From Alkalicaulis satelles (lineage in GTDB: Bacteria; Pseudomonadota; Alphaproteobacteria; Caulobacterales; Maricaulaceae): a stretch of DNA of 64,000 bases. The position numbers were made by a program, and so were the translations under genes. Location: contig NZ_VWOJ01000004.1 in NCBI RefSeq assembly GCF_008630495.1, forward strand, positions 62,001-126,000, given 5' to 3'. Below, one piece after another: positions 10,631-64,000 of this stretch. A model generated the notes under the pieces. It saw only the letters and a list, made by a program, of their open reading frames with translations, was not told the origin of the DNA and did no database searches. The number at the start of each line of letters is the position of its first letter. Positions within the stretch are counted from its first letter, which is position 1.

Positions 10631-12684
10631 TCCGCTTCTTCCTGCCCGCCATGCTGGTTGAACCAGGCGATGATGTGGCCGGTCTTGTACAGCAGGCGCG
10701 AGGGCCGGGAATCGGCGATGCCGTGATAGGTCTCGGGGATGCGCACCAGGCGGCTTTCAATGCCGCGGATCTGGAGCGCGTTGAAATACTGTTCCGACTC
10801 CCCCACCGGCGTGCGCCGGTCCTCGGCGCCGACAAACACCATGGTGGGAGCGCTGACATTGCCGACCAGCGACAGCGGCGAGCGGCGCCAGTACTCTTCC
10901 GGTGCGTCCCAGGGCGTCACGCCGAACCAGTAGCGGTGGATCACCGGCCCAATATCGGAAGCCAGCGCAAAGCTGGTCCAGTTGATCACCGGCTTGCCCA
11001 CGGCGGCTGCACGCCAGCGCTCATTGGTTCCGATCAGCCAGGCGGTCAGCACGCCGCCGCCCGAGCCGCCGGTGACGTAAAGCCGGTTCTCGTCGATGAA
11101 GCCGCGCGCGATCAGGGCGTCCACGCCTGATTCCAGATCATCCACGTCGTTACCTGGATAATCCTTGTCGATGAGGTTGGCGAAGTCCTGGCCGTAGGAG
11201 GTTGAGCCGCGCGGATTGGTGTAGAACACCACATAGCCCGCCGCGGCCATCAGCTGGACCTGGCCGGAGAATTGCGGCCCGTAGGCGGTGTGCGGCCCGC
11301 CATGGATTTCAAGGATCATCGGCCATTGGCGCGAGGCATCGAAACCGGGCGGATAGGCGATCCAGCCCTCGATCTCGCGCCCGTCCGCCGCGCTCTCCCA
11401 GGTAAAGCGCTCCACACGGGCGAGATCGCGCGCGCCGAGCACGCCGGCATTGAGATCGGTCAGGGTACGCGCTGCGCCCCGGCGCTGGCCGGCGCCCACA
11501 TTGGCCAGATCCTGCGCGCTCGCCAGCGGCGCGGCCCAGCGGCCATTGCCTGACACCGAGAACATGCCCGTGGTGTAGGGCCGCCCGATGGTCAGGCCGC
11601 CAATGCGATCGGTGATGCGGTCCAGCCCGCCATTCAGACCGGCATAGGCCAGCACGGTATGACCGACATCGTCAAAGCGCACCCAAAGCCCGCGCCCCGA
11701 GCCGTCCCATTCGGCCTGGGCGACGCCCCGGTCGAGATCGGAGAGCAGGCGGCGCGGCTCGCCGCCGGAGAGGGAGACCGTGTAGAGCTTGTTGTCCTGA
11801 TGGGAGAACTCCTCGCGATAGGTGCGCAGGAAGGCCAGCGTGCGCCCGTCCGGGCTGACGCGGGGCGCGCGCGCGGCGCCGGGCAGATCGGTGATCTGGC
11901 GCTTGGCGCCATCTGCGGCGCGCACGGCCCAGATATGCGCCGTGCGAAAATCAAATCCGTCCTCGGCCTGCCCGGCATGGCTGAACAGGATTTCGGCGCT
12001 GTCGGCGGTCCAGCTGAGCCCGCTGACCGATCCGCTCTCCACCGAGGTGATCTTGCGCGGCGCGCCGCCATCAATAGGCAGGACATGGATTTGGCTCGCC
12101 CCGGGCGGCAGATCGCCGATGCCGTCAGACTGATAGGCGAAAGTCTCGTCCACGCGCGGCAGCGGCGCCCATTCGGCGCCCTGGGGCCGCTCGGGCAGGC
12201 CGATATCCACCTCGATTCCGCGCGCCGGCGCGAACATGGTGAAGGCGATCTGCGTGCCGTCGGGCGAGACCGTGATCTGGGAGGCGCCGCGCGGCAGGCG
12301 CGCCAGACGCACAGAGCGCGCATCGCTCAGCCAGGCCATGCGCAACTCGGTGCGGCCGTCCTCATTGGACAGATAGACCAGGCGCGAGGAGTCCGGCGTC
12401 CAGACCGGGCTTGAATAATCGCCCGCGCCGGTGACCAGCGGGCGGTGGCCGCTCCCGTCGAAATCCACCACCCAGATCGCGCCGCGCATGCGGTCGGTCA
12501 TGATGTCGGCGGAGCGGCGCTGATAGGCGATGGCGCGCCCGTCCGGACTGATCTGCACGTCAGCGGCCATTTCCAGGCTGAATACGTCCTCAAAACGCAT
12601 CGGGCCGTGAGCGGCGTCATCGGCGATGGCGGCCGAGGCCGCCGCTCCAAGGGTGAGGCTGGCGGTGAAAGCGAGCAGGATCAT
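10627..12684 (-). CDS. S9 family peptidase (dipeptidyl/acylaminoacyl peptidase type), secreted
   Basis: 685 residues from ATG 12684, with AGGAGA 12 bases upstream and a signal peptide ending SAAIADD. The first ~400 residues form a beta-propeller with repeated ISPDGR, VWTPDS and VSPDG blades. The C-terminal alpha/beta-hydrolase domain has the oxyanion HGGPH, nucleophile VTGGSGGGVL, acid GAEDRRTPVG and histidine PETYHGIAD. It probably cleaves short peptides in the periplasm. A second S9-type protein is encoded at 25.6 kb. Confidence 0.92.
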   Translation of the reverse strand: MILLAFTASLTLGAAASAAIADDAAHGPMRFEDVFSLEMAADVQISPDGRAIAYQRRSADIMTDRMRGAIWVVDFDGSGHRPLVTGAGDYSSPVWTPDSSRLVYLSNEDGRTELRMAWLSDARSVRLARLPRGASQITVSPDGTQIAFTMFAPARGIEVDIGLPERPQGAEWAPLPRVDETFAYQSDGIGDLPPGASQIHVLPIDGGAPRKITSVESGSVSGLSWTADSAEILFSHAGQAEDGFDFRTAHIWAVRAADGAKRQITDLPGAARAPRVSPDGRTLAFLRTYREEFSHQDNKLYTVSLSGGEPRRLLSDLDRGVAQAEWDGSGRGLWVRFDDVGHTVLAYAGLNGGLDRITDRIGGLTIGRPYTTGMFSVSGNGRWAAPLASAQDLANVGAGQRRGAARTLTDLNAGVLGARDLARVERFTWESAADGREIEGWIAYPPGFDASRQWPMILEIHGGPHTAYGPQFSGQVQLMAAAGYVVFYTNPRGSTSYGQDFANLIDKDYPGNDVDDLESGVDALIARGFIDENRLYVTGGSGGGVLTAWLIGTNERWRAAAVGKPVINWTSFALASDIGPVIHRYWFGVTPWDAPEEYWRRSPLSLVGNVSAPTMVFVGAEDRRTPVGESEQYFNALQIRGIESRLVRIPETYHGIADSRPSRLLYKTGHIIAWFNQHGGQEEAD

Positions 12685-55749: not shown

Positions 55750-56112
55750 CACATCGCGGCGCAAATCCAAAACGGGCGCCCGGGTCTTTTCCCGCTGTAT
55801 GGCCGGGCAGGTCAGGTTTTCCAGAGCGGCGCCTCCAGCCGGCCTGATGGCGGCGTTATTGGACGACTGCCGCACGCCAAGCCGCGGCCAGGTCAGATCG
55901 GCGCCCCCTATCTGAAAGGCTGAATTCATTTGACACAGGCGTCACATCGTGTGGGAAAATGCAATTTATAATTTTGTTGCACGTTGTGTGCAGCTTAACG
56001 CGTCAATAGCAGGCAGCTTGCTGCCATTCAGGAGATTGACCGTGTCAATCAGTATCGTTTCTTTTTGACCCGCTTTTAGCCACTTCTTATGCTTATCGGA
56101 AAGCGAAGTGCG
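55750..56112. other. Leader region at the left end of the AT-rich island
   Basis: 363 bases where composition changes from GC-rich to AT-rich. From about 55960 it holds a perfect TATAAT (55967-55972), TGCAC-N5-GTGCA (55978-55992), GGCAGC-TT-GCTGCC (56012-56025) and GATTGAC-CGT-GTCAATC (56034-56050). AGGAG at 56030-56034 stands seven bases before a GTG that opens an eight-codon frame ending TGA at 56066-56068. This could be a regulated leader of the synthetase-like gene. Confidence 0.5.
55967..55972 (+). promoter_or_regulatory. Candidate -10 element for the ArgRS-like gene
   Basis: TATAAT is a perfect -10 hexamer in the first AT-rich stretch upstream of the gene, about 145 bases before its ATG. 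No good -35 sequence stands at 17 bases, so an activator may be required. Confidence 0.35.
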
Positions 56113-57756
56113 ATGGAGACAATAAATATTAATTTTGACGATATAAATCTGACCCAAAGTATTGAATCTGTAATTAGAGCTCGTCTGGGGCCAATTGCGT
56201 TGCAGTCAGACTTTCGCCGCAGTCTGAAATCGAACGCAGATGCGGCAGTTGTCATCAGGGCGGGCATATCCAAAACGGCCGGGAGATCACTTGAGGCGGA
56301 TTTCGAGCGCTTGGATGGCATTGAGGCTGCCCGCTATTCAAAACAGAAACTGTTTCTTCGGTTTTCAGAACATTTCTTGTCCGCGCGCATGGATTGGCAA
56401 TTGGCGTGCAATTTCGATGCCTGCAGGCCTTTCCAGAACCACAATGTACTTGTCGCTTTCTGTGACCCGAATGCGAATAAGGCGCTGCATGTGGGTCACT
56501 TGAGAAATATTGCGATCGGAAACGCACTGGCGTCTCTATGGGAAACCCTTGGTGCAGACGTCCAGCGCCAATCTGTTGTCTGTGATATTGGCCGCAATAT
56601 AGCGGAATCAATTGCGGGACTTATAGCGGCGGGTGCGGCGCAATATCTTGACGGATCTGAATTATTATCACCCCGGCTTGGAGCGCTTTACGCGAAATAT
56701 GTAGCCGATTGCGGTCTCCAGATCGAAGACGCCCTGTCGGCGGACGCCCCCATCGTACGGGAGCTGGCAAGGCATGATGATGAGGCCGATCGTGTTCTCG
56801 ACCTGTGGCGGTCAGGAGACCAGGACATTCACGCAATCTGGAAAGCGGCGATTGCGCGTGTCATGCAGGAGCAGGCCCATACATTAAGCAGGCTGGGGGT
56901 TGTTATTGAGCGCAATATTCCTGAATCAAATTCGATACAGCATGTCGATGCAATGATCGAAAAGCTAAAGAGAAAATCTACTATATTCCAGGACATTGAT
57001 GGTTCTATTGTTTTGGAGACGGGCCGGTCGGATTATGCGCGCTGCGTGCTTGCACGTTCAGATGGTTTTCCCACGGAACATTTGCGCGCTCTCATACTGT
57101 GGGATTCAATTCGAGGCGAAATACCGGGGTTAGATCGCCTTGTGCATGTGATGGGCCAGGAGTGGCGTACAAGTACAGAAATTCGACTGGAGCTGCTTGA
57201 CCGTCTCCAGGACGATGGCGCTTGGCGTCAGTATGAACTCGTGCCCCACCAGGTCGTGCGCACAGATGGTTCAGATATGAAATCAAGCCATGGAAATAGC
57301 ATTCTGATTGATGATCTTTGTGATGCAATGGAGAGATATTTTCACGAAAATGCTGATTACGGTGAGCTTCAAAAAAGCAGCCCAATGATAAAATCAGCCG
57401 TGATGGCGCCTATGCTGAATTCGGATATGAATGATATAATTGATGTGTCTTTTGATTTGTTCTTCAACGAAAGCTGGAACCCGGGTTTGAGGGTGGCGCG
57501 GGCACTCGCCATGACCCGGGGCGCCGAGCCTGCGCCCGCGATGTGTCAGGACGTCAGGTTTATGTTGTTTCAGGCGGAGCGGCTCACACGAATGATTGAA
57601 ACGGCTGCAATCAAGTCAGATCCCCGGCTTGTGGTTCGCCATTTGATACGGCTTGCTGATAACAGGCTGGAAGCGGCCGGGCCGGTTCCGTCCGACGCCC
57701 TGTTGCGTCTGCTTTTGATGCGAGGGGCTCGCGCGCTGGGATGGGCCGCCAGGTAA
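56113..57756 (+). CDS. Arginyl-tRNA-synthetase-like protein (orphan paralogue)
   Basis: 547 residues from ATG 56113 (ATG 56089 is possible). The class I signature is ANKALHVGHLRNIAIGNALA, with HVGH as the HIGH motif, and VVCDIGRNIAES aligns with the ArgRS VNDAGRQ region. The N-terminal ~110 residues sit where ArgRS has its tRNA D-loop-reading domain; the last ~110 residues (FQAERLTRMIETAAIKSDPR, LIRLADNRL) look like a shortened anticodon-binding domain. The KMSKS-like site is degenerate: DMKSSHGNSILIDDL against a usual KMSSRKGN. It is shorter than typical ArgRS and lies in a small cluster with a tRNA-like gene, so it is likely specialised rather than the housekeeping enzyme. Confidence 0.8.
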   Translation: METININFDDINLTQSIESVIRARLGPIALQSDFRRSLKSNADAAVVIRAGISKTAGRSLEADFERLDGIEAARYSKQKLFLRFSEHFLSARMDWQLACNFDACRPFQNHNVLVAFCDPNANKALHVGHLRNIAIGNALASLWETLGADVQRQSVVCDIGRNIAESIAGLIAAGAAQYLDGSELLSPRLGALYAKYVADCGLQIEDALSADAPIVRELARHDDEADRVLDLWRSGDQDIHAIWKAAIARVMQEQAHTLSRLGVVIERNIPESNSIQHVDAMIEKLKRKSTIFQDIDGSIVLETGRSDYARCVLARSDGFPTEHLRALILWDSIRGEIPGLDRLVHVMGQEWRTSTEIRLELLDRLQDDGAWRQYELVPHQVVRTDGSDMKSSHGNSILIDDLCDAMERYFHENADYGELQKSSPMIKSAVMAPMLNSDMNDIIDVSFDLFFNESWNPGLRVARALAMTRGAEPAPAMCQDVRFMLFQAERLTRMIETAAIKSDPRLVVRHLIRLADNRLEAAGPVPSDALLRLLLMRGARALGWAAR

Positions 57757-57783
57757 GGCTGCGGAAGACAAGCCTCCGCAGCC
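57757..57783 (+). terminator. Hairpin immediately after the ArgRS-like gene
   Basis: GGCTGCGGA at 57757-57765 pairs perfectly with TCCGCAGCC at 57775-57783, starting one base after the stop codon. No T-run follows. Confidence 0.5.
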
Positions 57784-57786
57784 GAA

Positions 57787-57830
57787 CCAGGGCATCTATT
57801 CCAGGGCATCTTTTCCAGGGCATCATCATC
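57787..57830. repeat. 14-bp tandem repeat, three copies
   Basis: CCAGGGCATCTATT, CCAGGGCATCTTTT and CCAGGGCATCATCATC follow each other directly. An inverted copy, GATGCCCTGG, lies at 58371-58380 inside the insertion of the tRNA-like gene, so the motif occurs on both sides of the peptide gene. Confidence 0.65.
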
Positions 57831-57851
57831 CGTTGTTACGGATGTACGCAT

Positions 57852-57902
57852 CTAGCCTTGTTTCGGTTCCGGATCAGCGAGTTGGAACCGAATTAAGGCT
57901 AG
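57852..57902 (-). other. Long hairpin whose loop holds the peptide stop codon
   Basis: CTAGCCTT + TTCGGTTCC (57852-57859, 57862-57870) is the reverse complement of GGAACCGAA + AAGGCTAG (57884-57892, 57895-57902). That gives 17 base pairs with a 2x2 internal loop and a 13-base top loop. The loop contains the last codons and the TGA (57874-57876) of the 97-residue peptide. No T-run follows on either side. Confidence 0.7.
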
Positions 57903-58167
57903 TCAGTGCACGGGAGACGGTGCGCGCTGCATCAGCAACTGGCACTGCATCCACTGCGAATGGATGGGCCGCTGGCACACTGACATCGTCAAGCGCACTC
58001 AGTGGCACCGCCGCTCGCGGTGGCGCTCCGAGTGGAACTCCCATAACTGGCGCCGAACGCGTCGCGAGTGGCGCCGAGACCGCAGAGAGACGCGAACTCA
58101 CTCGCGAGAGTGAAGTGCGTATCTCTTCGATCGCTGGAGCTTTCCTGAAAGCTGGAACTTTCACCAT
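57874..58167 (-). CDS. 97-residue CCA-rich peptide, candidate substrate of the island
   Basis: No family recognised. It is preceded by AGAAAGGAGGTGAT (58173-58186), fully complementary to 14 bases of the 16S rRNA 3' end, nine bases from the ATG: an exceptionally strong start. There is no Cys or Trp. Twelve prolines (residues 5, 11, 33, 40, 45, 49, 50, 55, 65, 69, 76, 95) mostly sit in [VA]-P-[ALV] contexts; 11 of the 12 codons are CCA and one is CCG, although CCG/CCC dominate in the surrounding genome. The tRNA-like gene 101 bases upstream has the matching anticodon UGG. The C-terminus is SVPTR. The DNA is rich in inverted repeats, so a structured RNA is an alternative reading. Confidence 0.6.
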   Translation of the reverse strand: MVKVPAFRKAPAIEEIRTSLSRVSSRLSAVSAPLATRSAPVMGVPLGAPPRAAVPLSALDDVSVPAAHPFAVDAVPVADAARTVSRALTSLNSVPTR

Positions 58168-58172
58168 TGAAA

Positions 58173-58201
58173 ATCACCTCCTTTCTTATCCAGGTTGGAT
58201 A
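58173..58201 (-). promoter_or_regulatory. Extended Shine-Dalgarno and hairpin before the peptide gene
   Basis: AGAAAGGAGGTGAT at 58173-58186 is a 14-base complement to the 16S rRNA end. Directly upstream TATCCA-ACC-TGGATA (58187-58201) can fold into a small hairpin that leaves the ribosome site exposed. Further upstream GCTTCC and GGAAGC (58212-58254) could enclose a larger stem. Confidence 0.7.
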
Positions 58202-58267
58202 CTCGTGGCTTCCAGGGCCCAGCGCTTTGAGGGCGCGCCAGGCCGGAAGCGATAGCGTTCAAAATGG

Positions 58268-58452
58268 TGGCGCATCTGACGGGATTCGAACCCGCACCTT
58301 CCAACTCCCAAAGCTGGTGCTCTTGAGCTGTAGAGGTCCCCATTCCGCTTGCGATCCGTTTTCTCATGACGATGCCCTGGACAATCACAATGAACGTCTC
58401 GCCGCTTCCCGGTTTCCTGTTCCAGCTATTTTTCCGATTGAGCTACAGATGC
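58268..58452 (-). tRNA. tRNA-like gene, anticodon UGG, interrupted by 109 nt in the D-loop
   Basis: First part 58452-58433: acceptor GCATCTG, TA, D-stem GCTC, loop start AATCGGA. Second part 58323-58268: A, D-stem GAGC, anticodon arm CCAGC-TTTGGGA-GTTGG, variable AAGGT, T-arm GCGGG-TTCGAAT-CCCGT, acceptor CAGATGC, G73 and encoded CCA. Joined, these give a canonical 76-nt cloverleaf; the acceptor halves are a perfect 7-bp match across the insertion (58432-58324). The anticodon TGG reads CCA (Pro), but G1-C72 and G73 are not the C1-G72 and A73 that bacterial ProRS requires; A20 and the GCATCYG-TAGCTCAA body resemble tRNA-Arg. Bases 8-10 are the stop codon of the methyltransferase gene. Either an intron-bearing, specialised tRNA or a recently interrupted pseudogene. 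Confidence 0.7.
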
Positions 58453-59204
58453 AAATCTTTCCCTCCTGACGTATGCGGCTTGCGGGCCACAAGAACGACG
58501 TTTTCGCGGCCATCCAGGCGGATATAGCTGGGGGTGTGCCGCCGATGAATATAGGCGGCTTTCTCTACGACAAGCCCGGCGGCCCTGGCTGCGCGCCCTA
58601 GTACTGAAGGGTCGAGGAGGTGTAAAAAATCAGGCAGTTCATATAATGTAGGGTGATTGGAATATTGATGTATATTGTAGCACTCTCCAGGCCAGCGCAG
58701 ACCTTTGGCTTTCGAATTCTTGTAATGGGGAATAAACCCACGAATGTTAGCCGCAAACGGCGAACCCGAGATCGATACGAAGCGTCCCCCCGGCGCCAGC
58801 CATCGGGCAACGCAGTGCATACCCGCTTCGATGTCGTGACCAGTGAGAAAATTCAATAAATTCGATGCGTGGATGGCATCAAACTGGTTTTCCTCATAGG
58901 CAAGTTCGTTCGGAAAACGGCCGCACACGAGTTTCAGACTGTCCCGCAGCTCAATAGGCGCGGCGTCTTGCAGAATCCGTAAGTGTCCGGGGTCAATATC
59001 ATTCGCGTGAACAAAGGCGCCAGATCGCAGCGCGGCGAGGGCGGCAACGCCCATGGCGCATCCGATATCGAGCACAGGCCTTGAAGCCTGGCTCGCCAAG
59101 TCAACGAAATACGCATTAATCTCGTTCAGTATTGTAGATGTGCGGCCACGCCTGTTCAGCGTTACGATGCTGGCTTCATCGGATTGGTCTATCGTACACG
59201 TCAT
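58443..59204 (-). CDS. Class I SAM-dependent methyltransferase
   Basis: 253 residues. Motif I is VLDIGCAMGVAALAALRSGA, followed by the acidic end of strand 2 in HANDIDPGHLRIL; post-I and motif II are FDAIHASNLLNFLTG and WLAPGGRFVSISGSPF. The acceptor cannot be told from sequence; a small molecule, amino acid or peptide is likelier than DNA. Its ATG overlaps the stop of the dehydrogenase gene (ATGA), and its stop TAG is bases 8-10 of the tRNA-like gene, so all three must share one transcript. Confidence 0.85.
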   Translation of the reverse strand: MTCTIDQSDEASIVTLNRRGRTSTILNEINAYFVDLASQASRPVLDIGCAMGVAALAALRSGAFVHANDIDPGHLRILQDAAPIELRDSLKLVCGRFPNELAYEENQFDAIHASNLLNFLTGHDIEAGMHCVARWLAPGGRFVSISGSPFAANIRGFIPHYKNSKAKGLRWPGECYNIHQYSNHPTLYELPDFLHLLDPSVLGRAARAAGLVVEKAAYIHRRHTPSYIRLDGRENVVLVARKPHTSGGKDLHL

Positions 59205-60343
59205 CGGGGGCTCTTTTTGATGTAAGACTGATAGCGAGATTGCAACTCTTCGGCATGAAGGCTTGCTTCGTTGACATGCATTTTCTTGCAGTAGTATCCA
59301 AATTCATTCTTTAACACTGTCATTTCCTGATCAGTAAATATGATGGTTCCATCGGGGAGTATGGCTTCAATACCTTCCACAACAGCGCCAGCCTCATTGA
59401 CCGATATCGCCTCATCAGAGCCAAACCCGCCAATGCAGTCGAGTGACACGCCCCCTTTTCCAATGCGTACAGGGTAGCCGCCGGGCAGGCCGTGCGGCCC
59501 TGGCGCATGCATGGCGCGGGTATTGCGCTCATCCAGAAGCGCTACCGCTACGGCAACCACGTTGGAAGCCGCCACGATTTGCCCGGCAATGCCTCTCACA
59601 CGCCGGAAGTCATCCACTACGCTTTTGAAGAGTGCGCTGTGCTGGATGTCAGATGAAGCCTCTCGGCCATCAAGCATCAGGCTCAGCGCGTAGGGGGCGG
59701 GGTCTGGGCGGCCGGTGCTTGAGATCTCGTTGCAAGCTGCATGATGGGCTGCGAACCTCAAGCTCAGCCGGTCGCGCGGCGCGCCCATGATCTTTTCGCA
59801 GGCGCGTTGAAGGCTCGGGATAAGGTTGGCGATATTGCCTGCACCGACCAAAGGCGCCAATCCGACGCTGTGAAGGGCCGGGTTCACAACATCGGGGAAG
59901 GCGGCATTGATCACCGACGCCTGAGAACCGCTGGCGGCGACGGCGAGCATGACGGTGCGGGCCGTTGCGAGATGGTTGGGCAGCCATGGGCCGATCCTGG
60001 CCTGTTGTAGCCGTTGGAAAAGAGGTTTCTCTAATAAAGAGATCGCCCAAAAAGGTTGAAGTGACGTGGCGTTGATAATTAAATCAGGGGACAGGCTTGA
60101 TATAAGGGATGCGGTTTGATCGATATTTTGGACATCAAGGCAATAAATATCCACCTTGGGCTCAAGGCCCAGGCACATGGCCGAAGTGATTGTAAGATTG
60201 GCTCTTTCATTGACTTTATTCAAAGTGCGTGAAGCAAGTATAATGTGATATCGATTGTCCATGCGGCTAAGCAGATCGGCGACCTGGCCGCCGATGACGC
60301 CGGAGCCCAGAACCATGACCGTATGCCGGGCCTGCTTCACCAT
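59201..60343 (-). CDS. Saccharopine-dehydrogenase-like NAD(P)-dependent oxidoreductase
   Basis: 380 residues from ATG 60343. The N-terminal Rossmann fold shows VMVLGSGVIGGQVADLLSRM (GxGxxG) and VDIYCLDVQNIDQTASLISS; LIINATSLQPFWAI follows the order of saccharopine-dehydrogenase-type proteins. The C-terminal ~230 residues are not assigned. Such enzymes reduce imines or oxidise secondary amines of amino-acid derivatives. The start lies 7 bases inside the end of the aminotransferase-HAD gene; a longer frame to 60415 has no similarity. Confidence 0.8.
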   Translation of the reverse strand: MVKQARHTVMVLGSGVIGGQVADLLSRMDNRYHIILASRTLNKVNERANLTITSAMCLGLEPKVDIYCLDVQNIDQTASLISSLSPDLIINATSLQPFWAISLLEKPLFQRLQQARIGPWLPNHLATARTVMLAVAASGSQASVINAAFPDVVNPALHSVGLAPLVGAGNIANLIPSLQRACEKIMGAPRDRLSLRFAAHHAACNEISSTGRPDPAPYALSLMLDGREASSDIQHSALFKSVVDDFRRVRGIAGQIVAASNVVAVAVALLDERNTRAMHAPGPHGLPGGYPVRIGKGGVSLDCIGGFGSDEAISVNEAGAVVEGIEAILPDGTIIFTDQEMTVLKNEFGYYCKKMHVNEASLHAEELQSRYQSYIKKSPR

Positions 60344-62709
60344 GTGACGGAACCTAGGGTCATGTCGGGAACGCATTGATGGTCTCGGCACAAGCGCATC
60401 AGTGTGTCGTTGCACAGTGAGCCATCGCCTCCGGGATGCAGGTCTGATGCATGCACTCCAGTGGCGGTGATCAGCAGGGACTTTGCTCCGAATGACGCGG
60501 CGCCGGCGATGTCGCTATTGAATGAGTCCCCGACCACCAGGATGCGCCGGGGCTCAATGCAATCCCGGCTGAGTTGAGTGGCCGCATGCATGGCGGCTTC
60601 ATGGTATATTTCCTGGTGAGGTTTTCCAAAAATATGGACCGCGCCCCCCATCGATTGATAATGGGCGGCGAGAATTCCAACCCCCAAACACATTTTCTGA
60701 TTAATGATGATGGATGTATCGGCATTACTGATCAGAAGTGGCAAGCGGCGATCTGCGCCCCGCCTTAAAATTTCGAGATGGTTGTCGTTTATATATTCAT
60801 CATCAATATAGCCAACAGCGAGCAACCAGTCTGCTTTCTCGATATCGGTAACAACGTTCAAGCCCGCCGCATCTGCCCAATGTCCACCAGGCTGAAAGCC
60901 CAAGACATAGCACGCTTGGCCCAATTCAGTTGATCCTGATTTCCGGCGTTGTACGCTCCGGAATGCCAGATCGCCACCTGTTACAATTTTGGCATAGCAG
61001 TCCGGCTGGATTCCAATGCGTGAAAGGTGATGAGATAAATCGGAACCAAGTCTTGAAGTATTAGAGATCAATATCACGGGGCGGCATTCTTTTGCCAGCT
61101 GGCGCAAGGTTGTCTGCGCGCCGGCGTGGGCGCGGCTTCCATCAGTGAGGACACCCCAGACGTCCATGAGCACGGCATCACACTCATGAATAGTCTCGCG
61201 CATCCCATGAATCGCACGGGGTTTCTGTGCGCTTTTGCGGGCTGTATTGACCTGCGCCGGAGGATTTTGAAGCGCCATTCGCAATACAGGCTCGACACGG
61301 TCTGTGAGGGCGGACTGGATGATGGCCCGGCCTTCGGCAAAACCCGCTTCAAAGGCCTTGGATTGGGCATTGGTCCATTGGCCATTCCATTGACTCTCAA
61401 TTGAAAGGGAGGCGGGATAGGTTAATGATGAGCCAATTGAGGCGATATTCATTCTGAGCTGATAACCTTCAAACCCATGTGATTGTCCCGGGGCGAAAGC
61501 CACCTTGGCGGACGCTAAAATCCATCGTGTGAGATCCGCGCTGTCTTCAAATTTAAGATTTTTTTTATTGAGCAAACTAACAAATCCGGAAAAATCAATG
61601 AGTATGGAGTGTCCGGCGCTGGGAGTGTGAGCGGCTTTGATGATCGATTTTTCATGTTCAAAAATCGTACGCAAATTCAAATCAACATGATTAATGGTTT
61701 CGATTGCAAGATTGATTCGGAACAAGATTTCTTTATTATTGAGTTCGTAGTATTCCGAGGGCGCGCGCAGGGCGTGCAGGGCTGCAATTTTAGAGAGCTG
61801 GGGCGTGGCGGCGGAGCTGGTCGTAATGTATTCAGACAGGGCATGAATAAGTTTGGGGGCGCCGCAAGCCCATCCGATGCGCATATTGGCGAGTCCGAAA
61901 TTCTTGCTGGCTCCGGAGACAGTAAGCACTTGTTCTGCAGCGCAGCCCGCCGCCAATCTGACTGAGCGCGCTGCAACGTCAAATTCACAATTGGCGAACA
62001 GGGCGTCTTCAATCGCCCACATTCGGAAATTTAATATAACCTCCGACAATTCTTCTATTTCTCTGACGCCACAAATTGCACCAGTCATTGAGGGGTTAAA
62101 CAGCACTAATATCGGCGGCGTGGGGGGAGCGTTTTCTTCAAGCCATTGCAAGAGTTGCTTGGCGGATGGGCGGTGGCTGTTCTCGGGCGAAGTGGGAATA
62201 ACGCAAAGCTTCAATCCACGATATGCACACCAGGCGGCAAGCGGATGATAGAATCCTGAAAAAGTAATGACTGTATCGCCGCGCTGAGCCATTAAATCCA
62301 GACCTGCAATGATCAAGCGCGTTGTGCCTGCATCAATTGCGGTATTGCCAGCGAGGTCGGGCGGAACGCCAATCTCCATGAAGTGTCTGGTGATTTCTGC
62401 GCTTAAACTTTTGAATTTCTGCAAAAACATATAGTTTTCAATTGGAAGCAGAGTGGGGTCTGACAAGGCGTGACGCATCGCTGTAATGGATTCAGGATAG
62501 GCTCTGCGCAGACCCTCGCCGTGTGCAAAAGACACCACGTCGGCATCAAACATGGACGGTCCTGGCCCGTGGCCGGAATCTTCTTCTCCCAACAGTGCGC
62601 TGCGTGCGCGCTTCAATGAAGTATAAGCGCTGCACTCAACCGGGAGCTCTAATGTCAGAGGGTTTAATTTCGACCTGAGATGATATGGAGAGGGCGCATC
62701 AGGTTTCAT
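60337..62709 (-). CDS. Fused class I/II aminotransferase and HAD-IIA phosphatase
   Basis: 790 residues from ATG 62709. Residues ~50-475 are a PLP-dependent aminotransferase fold: LVLFNPSMTGAI (NPxxTG), WAIEDALFANCEF and the PLP lysine in VSGASKNFGLANMRIGWACG. Residues ~510-785 are a NagD/TIGR01459-like HAD domain: DAVLMDVWGVLTDG with a Trp where DxD has the second Asp, then VILISNTSR, FGKPHQEIYHEAA and ILVVGDSFNSDIAGAASFGA. The fusion suggests a two-step conversion of an amino acid or its phosphorylated keto acid. It is the first large gene of the minus-strand unit. Confidence 0.85.
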   Translation of the reverse strand: MKPDAPSPYHLRSKLNPLTLELPVECSAYTSLKRARSALLGEEDSGHGPGPSMFDADVVSFAHGEGLRRAYPESITAMRHALSDPTLLPIENYMFLQKFKSLSAEITRHFMEIGVPPDLAGNTAIDAGTTRLIIAGLDLMAQRGDTVITFSGFYHPLAAWCAYRGLKLCVIPTSPENSHRPSAKQLLQWLEENAPPTPPILVLFNPSMTGAICGVREIEELSEVILNFRMWAIEDALFANCEFDVAARSVRLAAGCAAEQVLTVSGASKNFGLANMRIGWACGAPKLIHALSEYITTSSAATPQLSKIAALHALRAPSEYYELNNKEILFRINLAIETINHVDLNLRTIFEHEKSIIKAAHTPSAGHSILIDFSGFVSLLNKKNLKFEDSADLTRWILASAKVAFAPGQSHGFEGYQLRMNIASIGSSLTYPASLSIESQWNGQWTNAQSKAFEAGFAEGRAIIQSALTDRVEPVLRMALQNPPAQVNTARKSAQKPRAIHGMRETIHECDAVLMDVWGVLTDGSRAHAGAQTTLRQLAKECRPVILISNTSRLGSDLSHHLSRIGIQPDCYAKIVTGGDLAFRSVQRRKSGSTELGQACYVLGFQPGGHWADAAGLNVVTDIEKADWLLAVGYIDDEYINDNHLEILRRGADRRLPLLISNADTSIIINQKMCLGVGILAAHYQSMGGAVHIFGKPHQEIYHEAAMHAATQLSRDCIEPRRILVVGDSFNSDIAGAASFGAKSLLITATGVHASDLHPGGDGSLCNDTLMRLCRDHQCVPDMTLGSVTW

Positions 62710-62864
62710 CTGTTGGCGCAGCCCCAAATCGTTATTTTATTTGGGTAAATCGCTTGTTTTGCGCTGATGATATGGTCGGGATAAATTATAATATTGCCGC
62801 ATAATTCATTATGGCGGCCGGCCTTGAAGAAATTCGCCGTGATATATTCACAGGGTTGAGGCAT
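62706..62864 (-). CDS. Possible 52-residue leader peptide of the operon
   Basis: From ATG 62864 (a TTG at 62909 would add 15 codons) the frame reads MPQPCEYITANFFKAGRHNE and on to ITIWGCANR, ending in TGA that overlaps the aminotransferase ATG as ATGA. That overlap is the only support. There is no Shine-Dalgarno sequence and no family match. It may just be an open leader. Confidence 0.22.
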   Translation of the reverse strand: MPQPCEYITANFFKAGRHNELCGNIIIYPDHIISAKQAIYPNKITIWGCANR

Positions 62865-63287: not shown

Positions 63288-64000
63288 TCACAGGGCCAGA
63301 GCCGCGGTGATCAGGACCAGCAAAAGCATCAGGCTGGCGAGACGGTTGGCCAGGACGCGCTCGATCCGGTGCGCCATTTCACCAGCGCTCATCATGAGCC
63401 TGCGCGCACTCCGCCCGCCCGGTTGCGGCAGCGCGTCAGCAAGGCGTTTGGCCATCGCGCCCGCCAATGCGCTCGATATTTCCAGCGCCGTCCATGCCGT
63501 CGCCAGCAAATCGCCCTGCGGGGCCTGCAGCCCGGTCAGCCGCCAGCGCTGTGCGGCCAGGATAACCAGCGCCGCCAGCATGAGCGGTCCCGCCCCGGAG
63601 ACCAGGGCCTGAACCTGCCAGGCATAACCATGCGGCAGCCCGCTCTGTGGCCAGACAGCCCAGGGCAGGGCCAGCGCGCCCGCGCCCAGAACCAGAACCG
63701 GCAGAGACCGTGATAAGGGCGCGCGCGCGCCTGCCGCGCCGTCCGGACGCAACAGGGCCAGGGCGCGGGCGAGGAGAAGCGCTGTGGTGAAGGCCGAGGC
63801 GGTGATCAGCATCTCGCTGAACGGGTCCAGAGGCGCCTTCAGCGCCAGCTTGGCCAGCGACCCGCCTGTGAGCGGCAATCCCGCCACCGACAGCGCGATC
63901 AGGGCCAGCACTGCGCGCTGGCGCAGGGCGGCCGCGCCCGAGCCGGCCTGTACGGCGCCCACGCCCAGAAACAGCGCCCCCTTGGCCAGGGCGTGGTGGA
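63288..64000 (-). CDS. Proton-conducting antiporter/complex-I-like subunit (C-terminal part)
   Basis: The frame is open to the right window edge, so only the last ~237 residues are seen. The first visible stretch, HHALAKGALFLGVGAVQAGS, corresponds to the conserved lysine-containing helix of Mrp antiporter and NuoL/NuoM subunits, and LALKAPLDPFSEMLITASAF to the next family block. Several further hydrophobic helices follow. Exact identity (MnhA, MnhD or a related subunit) cannot be fixed without the rest. It is back on GC-rich host-type sequence. Confidence 0.65.
   Translation of the reverse strand, partial: HHALAKGALFLGVGAVQAGSGAAALRQRAVLALIALSVAGLPLTGGSLAKLALKAPLDPFSEMLITASAFTTALLLARALALLRPDGAAGARAPLSRSLPVLVLGAGALALPWAVWPQSGLPHGYAWQVQALVSGAGPLMLAALVILAAQRWRLTGLQAPQGDLLATAWTALEISSALAGAMAKRLADALPQPGGRSARRLMMSAGEMAHRIERVLANRLASLMLLLVLITAALAL

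Follow-up and report, generated by a model that had tools for sequence, protein, structure and literature searches.

In a 64,000-nucleotide (nt) stretch of Alkalicaulis satelles DNA (bases 62001-126000 of contig 4 in a 2.89-Mb genome; hereafter the window), we find a compact cassette that encodes an ArgRS-like aminoacyl-tRNA synthetase, an unusual 185-nt tRNA with anticodon UGG, three candidate biosynthetic enzymes, and a 97-amino-acid (aa) peptide in which 11 of the 12 proline codons are CCA. We propose, as the probable explanation though with some reserve, that this is a self-contained code-expansion cassette serving a single message: a private synthetase-tRNA pair would put a non-canonical residue at CCA, and the tRNA would be recruited by pairing with repeats 3' of the peptide gene. 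The initial annotation of this DNA had described a private synthetase, a private tRNA, amino-acid enzymes and a peptide read at CCA. That outline gains comparative support from a second locus where the elements co-occur and CCA is kept, whereas the perhaps arginine-derived residue that the annotation suggested is not supported. The D-loop insert of the tRNA, the complementarity between its loop and the 3' repeats, the 14-nt Shine-Dalgarno match and the low GC content of the island are additions to that annotation. The features of the cassette are the following.

56113..57756, plus strand: ArgRS-like class I synthetase; HIGH motif retained as HVGH, KMSKS degenerate, substitutions at the arginine-pocket positions
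57757..57783, no strand assigned: terminator-like hairpin that immediately follows the synthetase stop codon and, in the peptide transcript, comes after the repeats; fold z -5.2 (counterpart in the second locus, z -3.8)
57787-57796, 57801-57810 and 57815-57824, minus strand: three tandem copies of GATGCCCTGG in the peptide gene's 3' region; these complement the apical loop of the tRNA
57874..58167, minus strand: putative target peptide, 97 aa; the lone proline codon other than CCA is CCG, the second P of a PP pair
58173..58186, minus strand: Shine-Dalgarno sequence AGAAAGGAGGTGAT, complementary over 14 nt to the 3' end of 16S rRNA, conserved in the second locus
58268..58452, minus strand: tRNA gene, 185 nt with CCA; acceptor GCATCTG/CAGATGC, G73 and A20 (tRNA-Arg-like); anticodon UGG at 58308-58310
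58324..58432, minus strand: D-loop insert, 109 nt, a predicted long hairpin arm (consensus fold)
58371..58383, minus strand: apical loop UGUCCAGGGCAUC of the insert, holding the 10-nt complement of the 3' repeats at 58371-58380
58443..59204, minus strand: S-adenosylmethionine (SAM)-dependent methyltransferase, its stop codon inside the tRNA 5' half
59201..60415, minus strand: saccharopine-dehydrogenase-like (SDH-like) NAD(P) oxidoreductase
60337..62727, minus strand: fusion of a fold-type-I pyridoxal phosphate (PLP) enzyme (GntC/aminotransferase-like) with a class IIA HAD domain (PF00155, TIGR01459)

The strongest argument that these elements belong together is their recurrence. A scan of an 84,980-species genome collection with exact 8-residue patterns, from which distant relatives would escape, matched 15 stretches, and one of these is a relative: locus L045 of Oceaniradius stylonematis StC1, a member of the order Hyphomicrobiales. 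Its gene order and orientation are identical to those of the window cassette, a tRNA match lies at the corresponding place, and all five elements that the initial annotation had grouped as a module are present together. Protein identity between the loci is 52% for the synthetase, 60-70% for the peptide, 64-66% for the methyltransferase, 58% for the SDH-like protein and 52-53% for the PLP-HAD fusion. Judging from these two sequences, the recurrence puts the arrangement beyond chance. The Oceaniradius synthetase frame is broken near a single ambiguous base at 11437, and the C-terminal part of the protein was recovered only by tblastn, in a second frame.

In the window, Pfam and NCBIfam profiles bear out the initial reading of an ArgRS-like gene that faces a unit of aminotransferase-HAD, SDH-like and methyltransferase genes; this minus-strand unit continues through the tRNA and the 97-aa peptide gene. 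Taking the longest frames, the SDH-like gene overlaps the PLP-HAD gene by 79 bases (an overlap that may shrink with the true start codons), the methyltransferase overlaps the SDH-like gene by 4 and the tRNA overlaps the methyltransferase by 10, which suggests a single transcription unit. The island spans about 7 kb and has a GC content of 52.5%, compared with 66.4% for the remainder of the window, and on this basis it was probably acquired horizontally.

The codon usage of the peptide gene is what first points to a special meaning of CCA. A codon count agrees with the initial annotation on the 11 of 12 CCA codons in the window peptide, and in the Oceaniradius peptide the share is 15/19. In background open reading frames (ORFs), chosen mechanically outside the island (at least 150 aa, high GC at third codon positions), CCA accounts for 50/885 proline codons in 39 window ORFs and 16/193 in 10 ORFs of the Oceaniradius locus (6-8%). 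In the four cassette enzymes it accounts for 11/92 and 5/94, respectively (the Oceaniradius synthetase counted to residue 477), and the peptide differs from these enzymes with Fisher p values of 3e-8 in the window and 3e-11 in Oceaniradius. The five prolines not encoded by CCA are all the second P of a PP pair, each preceded by CCA. A comparison of the homologous peptides, one of the checks that the initial annotation had proposed, finds CCA retained at all 11 homologous positions; aligned proline codons are identical in 12/12 cases, as against 33/55 for other same-residue codons (p 0.005). The GC contents of the two cassettes lie 13 points apart, and the CCA pattern persists despite this gap, as one would expect of a codon whose meaning here is not proline.

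Differences between the two loci in the peptide gene fall 18/18/44 by codon position, which favours the minus-strand frame; a W/R-rich reading of the same region on the plus strand is disfavoured by this distribution. Upstream, the 14-nt AGAAAGGAGGTGAT complements what we take to be the 3' end of the 16S rRNA. Among frames of at least 60 aa with at least 8 proline codons, 7/217 in the window and 1/102 in the Oceaniradius locus exceed 60% CCA, and the peptide has the highest fraction. The six other CCA-rich window frames overlap longer ORFs in another frame, by coordinates, and were set aside.

The initial annotation was right about a tRNA-like gene with anticodon UGG but had only its 3' part. 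This part scores 35.9 bits with Rfam RF00005 (gathering score 29). By aligning the two loci, we located the 5' half about 110 nt upstream, at 58452-58433, where it begins GCATCTGTAGCTCAA(T/C)CGGA at 58452 and overlaps the methyltransferase stop codon. The complete tRNA, with a cloverleaf pattern and a CCA end, is 185 nt in both loci and aligns without gaps, with identities of 19/20 in the 5' half, 80/109 in the insert and 53/56 in the 3' half. ARAGORN, run on the window, calls a single gene, a tRNA-Glu elsewhere, and neither the cassette tRNA nor any tmRNA; when the insert is omitted, it calls both loci as a 76-nt tRNA with anticodon UGG. An unconstrained consensus fold of the two sequences gives a cloverleaf plus a long D-loop hairpin with apical loop UGUCCAGGGCAUC. 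This fold comprises 47 pairs over the full RNA, every one of which can form in both sequences, with 2 changed on both sides and 8 on one, whereas sliding the partners by 1-3 columns leaves only 36-44% of cells able to pair. Since the syntenic copy in O. stylonematis is again 185 nt long, this tRNA is, as far as the two sequences can tell, not a product of decay.

Identity elements set the cassette tRNA apart from the tRNAs of both hosts. Bacterial arginine identity includes A20, C35 and A/G73, and proline identity A73, G72, G35 and G36, according to the excerpts available from PMC9976931. The cassette tRNA has A20 and G73 with G35, and C72/G73 in place of G72/A73; it therefore lacks a main determinant of each host enzyme and should be a poor substrate for both host ArgRS and host ProRS. 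Searches of the two genomes gave 83 tRNA matches, 42 in one and 41 in the other with the cassette tRNAs counted, and we compared 65 of these loci. In each genome a single tRNA-Pro exists for each of the anticodons UGG, CGG and GGG, and all of them start with CGG and have A73. Host tRNA-Arg carries G73, and the CCG isoacceptors and one ACG isoacceptor share the acceptor GCACCCG/CGGGTGC, which is close to GCATCTG/CAGATGC of the cassette tRNA, and a D-loop containing GGATA. The cassette tRNA is thus of arginine type at its acceptor end, at the start of its D-loop (G18 G19 A20 in our numbering) and at G73, and of proline type in its anticodon.

The synthetase departs from canonical ArgRS. It matches PF00750 (E 1.2e-19) and reaches 101.5 bits against TIGR00456 (argS), below the cut-off of 261.65; the start at 56113 given in the initial annotation agrees better with the alignment than does the frame's first ATG, at 56089. 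Both genomes encode a separate canonical ArgRS above the cut-off, that of the window host scoring 384.6. Because this normal ArgRS and the tRNA-Pro UGG, CGG and GGG species are retained, CCA normally means proline in both genomes. We aligned the cassette proteins to yeast ArgRS (1bs2) and with 18 ArgRS-type proteins of relatives (30 loci were tried, and 12 had no frame by the filter), and examined E148, Y347, D351 and Q375 of the yeast enzyme, which we presume to contact arginine (a literature search gave no text for this). In both cassette proteins these positions are replaced (E148 by A/C, Y347 by E, D351 by A, or by L in the alignment to 1bs2, and Q375 by W), while N153 and HVGH are kept. 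The absence of the presumed arginine-contacting residues of the canonical set favours a different amino acid, and the arginine-derived residue of the initial annotation is not supported. An AlphaFold2 model of the synthetase from a two-row alignment had a mean pLDDT of 35.1 and was therefore not taken into a fold search.

A last element links the tRNA to the peptide message. Between the peptide stop codon and the terminator-like hairpin lie three copies of GATGCCCTGG in the window and four in Oceaniradius, with variable linkers, and in both loci the apical loop of the D-loop insert displays CCAGGGCAUC, the exact 10-nt complement of GATGCCCTGG. There are 4 matches to this motif or its complement in the window, the loop included, compared with 0.44 expected from shuffles, and tandem GATGCCCTGG (two units within 15 bases) occurs at this locus only in both genomes. 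The predicted duplex between a 22-nt loop segment and the 3' region has an energy of -30.8 kcal/mol in the window and -27.3 kcal/mol in Oceaniradius, values equalled by 0 and 6, respectively, of 1000 segments after shuffling. Since the hairpin separates the synthetase stop codon from the repeats, these should belong to the peptide transcript, where they would be complementary to the tRNA loop. In the reverse reading, the synthetase transcript itself may bear the loop sequence as a protein-binding mimic. As a separate observation, the tRNA-peptide spacer of the window (58190-58267) contains GGGCCCTGGAA, which is near the repeat unit in sequence and is not kept in Oceaniradius.

This complementarity bears on a problem that the initial annotation had raised, namely that CCA codons in the island's own enzyme genes would make a global reassignment ambiguous; the codons are indeed there, as the counts above attest. 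Since CCA is read as proline elsewhere in both hosts, a tRNA of the proposed kind must be confined to the peptide message, and the complementarity of its hairpin to the 3' repeats suggests how this could be solved. We put forward, tentatively and with slightly less than even confidence, that the tRNA carries its own guide: the D-loop hairpin would pair with the 3' repeats of one mRNA, so that CCA would be non-canonical in that message only and remain proline elsewhere.

The enzymes suggest where the residue might come from. The PLP domain of the fusion matches GntC and aminotransferases, the SDH-like reductase weakly resembles saccharopine and carboxyspermidine dehydrogenases, and the solved relatives among the matches listed for the methyltransferase are the cypemycin N-terminal methyltransferase and CcbJ. 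We propose that the fusion and the reductase, perhaps with the methyltransferase, would make or finish a non-canonical amino acid, which the ArgRS-derived synthetase would charge onto the dedicated tRNA with its tRNA-Arg-type body and UGG anticodon. The charged tRNA would then read CCA in the adjoining protein of 97-113 aa, where true proline would be written CCG, CCT or CCC, and loop pairing with the 3-4 tandem repeats would hold several tRNAs on the peptide message, leaving CCA elsewhere as proline. The SDH-like protein occurs in 6 of 398 genomes of the host's own order besides its own, and in those six 20-kb stretches (L039-L044) a tblastn search for the synthetase gives no match at E<=1; the SDH-like protein alone is therefore no marker of the system. 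In L039-L042 these SDH relatives lie in small clusters of other kinds, whose Pfam matches include alanine racemase (L039 and L041), a HAD protein (L041), an EamA transporter (L040) and, in L042, HAD, transaldolase, sulfotransferase, SDR and methyltransferase proteins.

Several observations weigh against a message-specific code-expansion cassette. The cassette enzymes themselves contain CCA codons, and the five cassette proteins, to which this search was limited, include no special elongation factor or SelB-like match, while a 109-nt arm at the elbow of the tRNA must get through EF-Tu and the ribosome. The covariation of the structure is matched by 122/500 shuffles, although two sequences can be expected to yield little more than this. 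In single sequences the cloverleaf with a D-stem is not the best fold (-61.7 vs -62.0 kcal/mol in the window and -67.4 vs -70.9 kcal/mol in Oceaniradius), and D-stem pairing probability is 0.18 and 0.00, respectively, with the acceptor stem near 1.0; since these folds disfavour it, the D-stem rests on the consensus fold and the tRNA pattern. The consensus fold also lengthens the anticodon stem by two pairs that reach into the loop. As for the loop pairing, internal pairs engage five of the ten bases of CCAGGGCAUC for the most part in the single-sequence ensemble of the window; in Oceaniradius the core bases are mostly open. Neither the loop core nor the repeats vary between the loci, so that the pairing offers no covariation test, and the two bases that precede CCAGGG in the loop do vary, with no matching change in the repeats. 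Finally, the cassette is known from two loci only.

Other explanations account for parts of these data. The charged tRNA could be an amino-acid donor for a non-ribosomal reaction on the peptide (a PEARL-like ligase, a transferase or a small-molecule pathway) with no decoding at all, which seems to us unlikely; the initial annotation had also considered a transfer to the peptide. TRNA-dependent peptide extension is known for PEARLs, as excerpts of PMC11962472 describe, and tailoring of the peptide is plausible given that one of the two solved methyltransferase relatives is a peptide N-terminal methyltransferase. Against a donor role, Pfam and NCBIfam searches limited to the five cassette proteins return no PEARL, FemX, cyclodipeptide-synthase or LanB-like ligase match, and this explanation leaves unexplained why CCA encodes every proline that is not second in PP and why UGG is kept in both loci. 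We rate as rather unlikely that the insert is removed like an intron, the spliced tRNA decoding CCA, and that the loop/repeat complementarity serves antisense control of stability, translation or processing. The 76-nt tRNA that ARAGORN calls once the insert is taken out would fit this explanation, as would the low D-stem probability of single sequences carrying the insert and the apparent placement of tRNA, peptide and repeats on one transcript. It is harder to square with the conservation of the insert and its loop (80/109 columns identical and all predicted pairs kept), and Rfam matches no intron family at either locus.

An improbable variant is that the private pair inserts plain arginine, or proline, at CCA and that the enzymes modify the peptide post-translationally. 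The synthetase and tRNA body do resemble an arginine pair, and the methyltransferase could act on the peptide; yet the pocket has lost the residues that we presume to recognise the guanidinium group, the G72/A73 determinants of ProRS are missing from the acceptor end, and plain proline would need no private pair. That the tRNA is a degenerate remnant of genomic-island integration with a chance codon bias is very improbable, since the low-GC island at a variable spot and the failure of ARAGORN to call the gene stand beside an Oceaniradius RNA of equal length in the same gene interval, with a perfect acceptor stem and an intact T stem, that largely refutes it.

Comparison with known systems places the proposed code-expansion cassette among, and apart from, its nearest parallels. 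The pyl cassette is a transferable unit with a private synthetase (the class II PylRS), a tRNA whose CUA anticodon reads UAG, and biosynthetic enzymes, and here too a synthetase, a tRNA and enzymes stand together in one transferable unit; all are encoded and conserved together in two loci, and the enzymes would supply the amino acid. The differences are an ArgRS-like class I enzyme (only class I synthetase domains are found in the five cassette proteins), a UGG anticodon directed to the sense codon CCA, a putative target protein within the cassette and the 109-nt D-loop insert. tmRNA combines tRNA ends with a large internal extension, and the cassette tRNA shares this plan; it differs in having a complete anticodon arm, and ARAGORN does not call it a tmRNA. 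Selenocysteine and pyrrolysine, the known natural extensions of the code, use stop codons, according to the parts of PMC1914089 available. Recoding of selenocysteine through SelB and SECIS, as covered by excerpts of PMC7609411, is likewise restricted to particular messages through an RNA element that lies apart from the codon; here the codon is a sense codon, and the element would act by direct pairing of the tRNA to the 3' repeats. Allo-tRNAs and other non-canonical bacterial tRNAs, in the same excerpts, resemble the cassette tRNA in that an anticodon mismatched to the body could change a sense codon, but allo-tRNAs have altered acceptor domains and serine-type identity, whereas the cassette tRNA has a D-loop insert, an arginine-type body and a dedicated synthetase. 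PEARL-type pathways for ribosomally synthesized and post-translationally modified peptides, as far as excerpts of PMC11962472 go, share aminoacyl-tRNA, a small ribosomal peptide and tailoring enzymes; the cassette has no PEARL match, encodes its own synthetase and tRNA, and shows an internal codon pattern. A description of such a system was not found among the matches listed from the openly licensed PMC literature, as far as the excerpts of those sources extend, with subscription journals and preprints outside this scope. If our proposal is true, the cassette would provide a naturally occurring orthogonal pair for a sense codon, whose message-specific meaning is set by tRNA-mRNA pairing, a new way of altering the code for a single message. 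It would show how one cell keeps two meanings for one codon, and it would offer synthetic biology a compact sense-codon system on an ArgRS scaffold.

The island is rare. Sweeps of genomes in overlapping samples, made with the synthetase sequence or an alignment of it, found no third copy. In the 137 genomes of the host's own family there are 50 matches at E<=0.001, the best non-self match being 9.4e-10, with frames of 505-716 aa. In the 398 genomes of its order only the own genome and one 597-aa frame (8e-19), which was put into the ArgRS-type alignment above, pass 1e-12, and in the 385 genomes of its class only the own match is found at 1e-40. On the Oceaniradius side, sweeps of the family (247 genomes), genus (5) and order (297) found only G1170, at 1e-40, 1e-20 and 1e-25, respectively. 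Searches of plasmids and phages gave eight ArgRS-region matches at 21-29% identity and HAD-region matches (28 records, best 20), and otherwise none, and scans of viral contigs with the synthetase and with the peptide found no relative. The sole exact match to the cassette anticodon-arm DNA in the viral scan is a tRNA-Pro(UGG)-like stretch on contig L117 (9809-9831). ARAGORN does not call it, the cassette proteins are absent there (best tblastn E 0.34) and inspection by eye shows no partner for its acceptor 3' strand immediately upstream.

The surroundings of the two cassettes hold features of their own. The gene to the right of the island (window 63288-63998; also in L121 and L122) is present in 3 of the 15 genomes of the genus, the host's among them; beside it, G089 has other genes, one of which resembles a peptide synthetase when read, and G090 has a distant TonB-receptor relative. 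The differing neighbours of this gene suggest that the site resembles a hot spot for variable DNA. In Oceaniradius, the DNA adjoining the cassette (16994-20574 of L045) encodes, from translations read by eye, a LanM-like lanthipeptide synthetase and a leader-peptide-like precursor with a Cys-rich core at its end.

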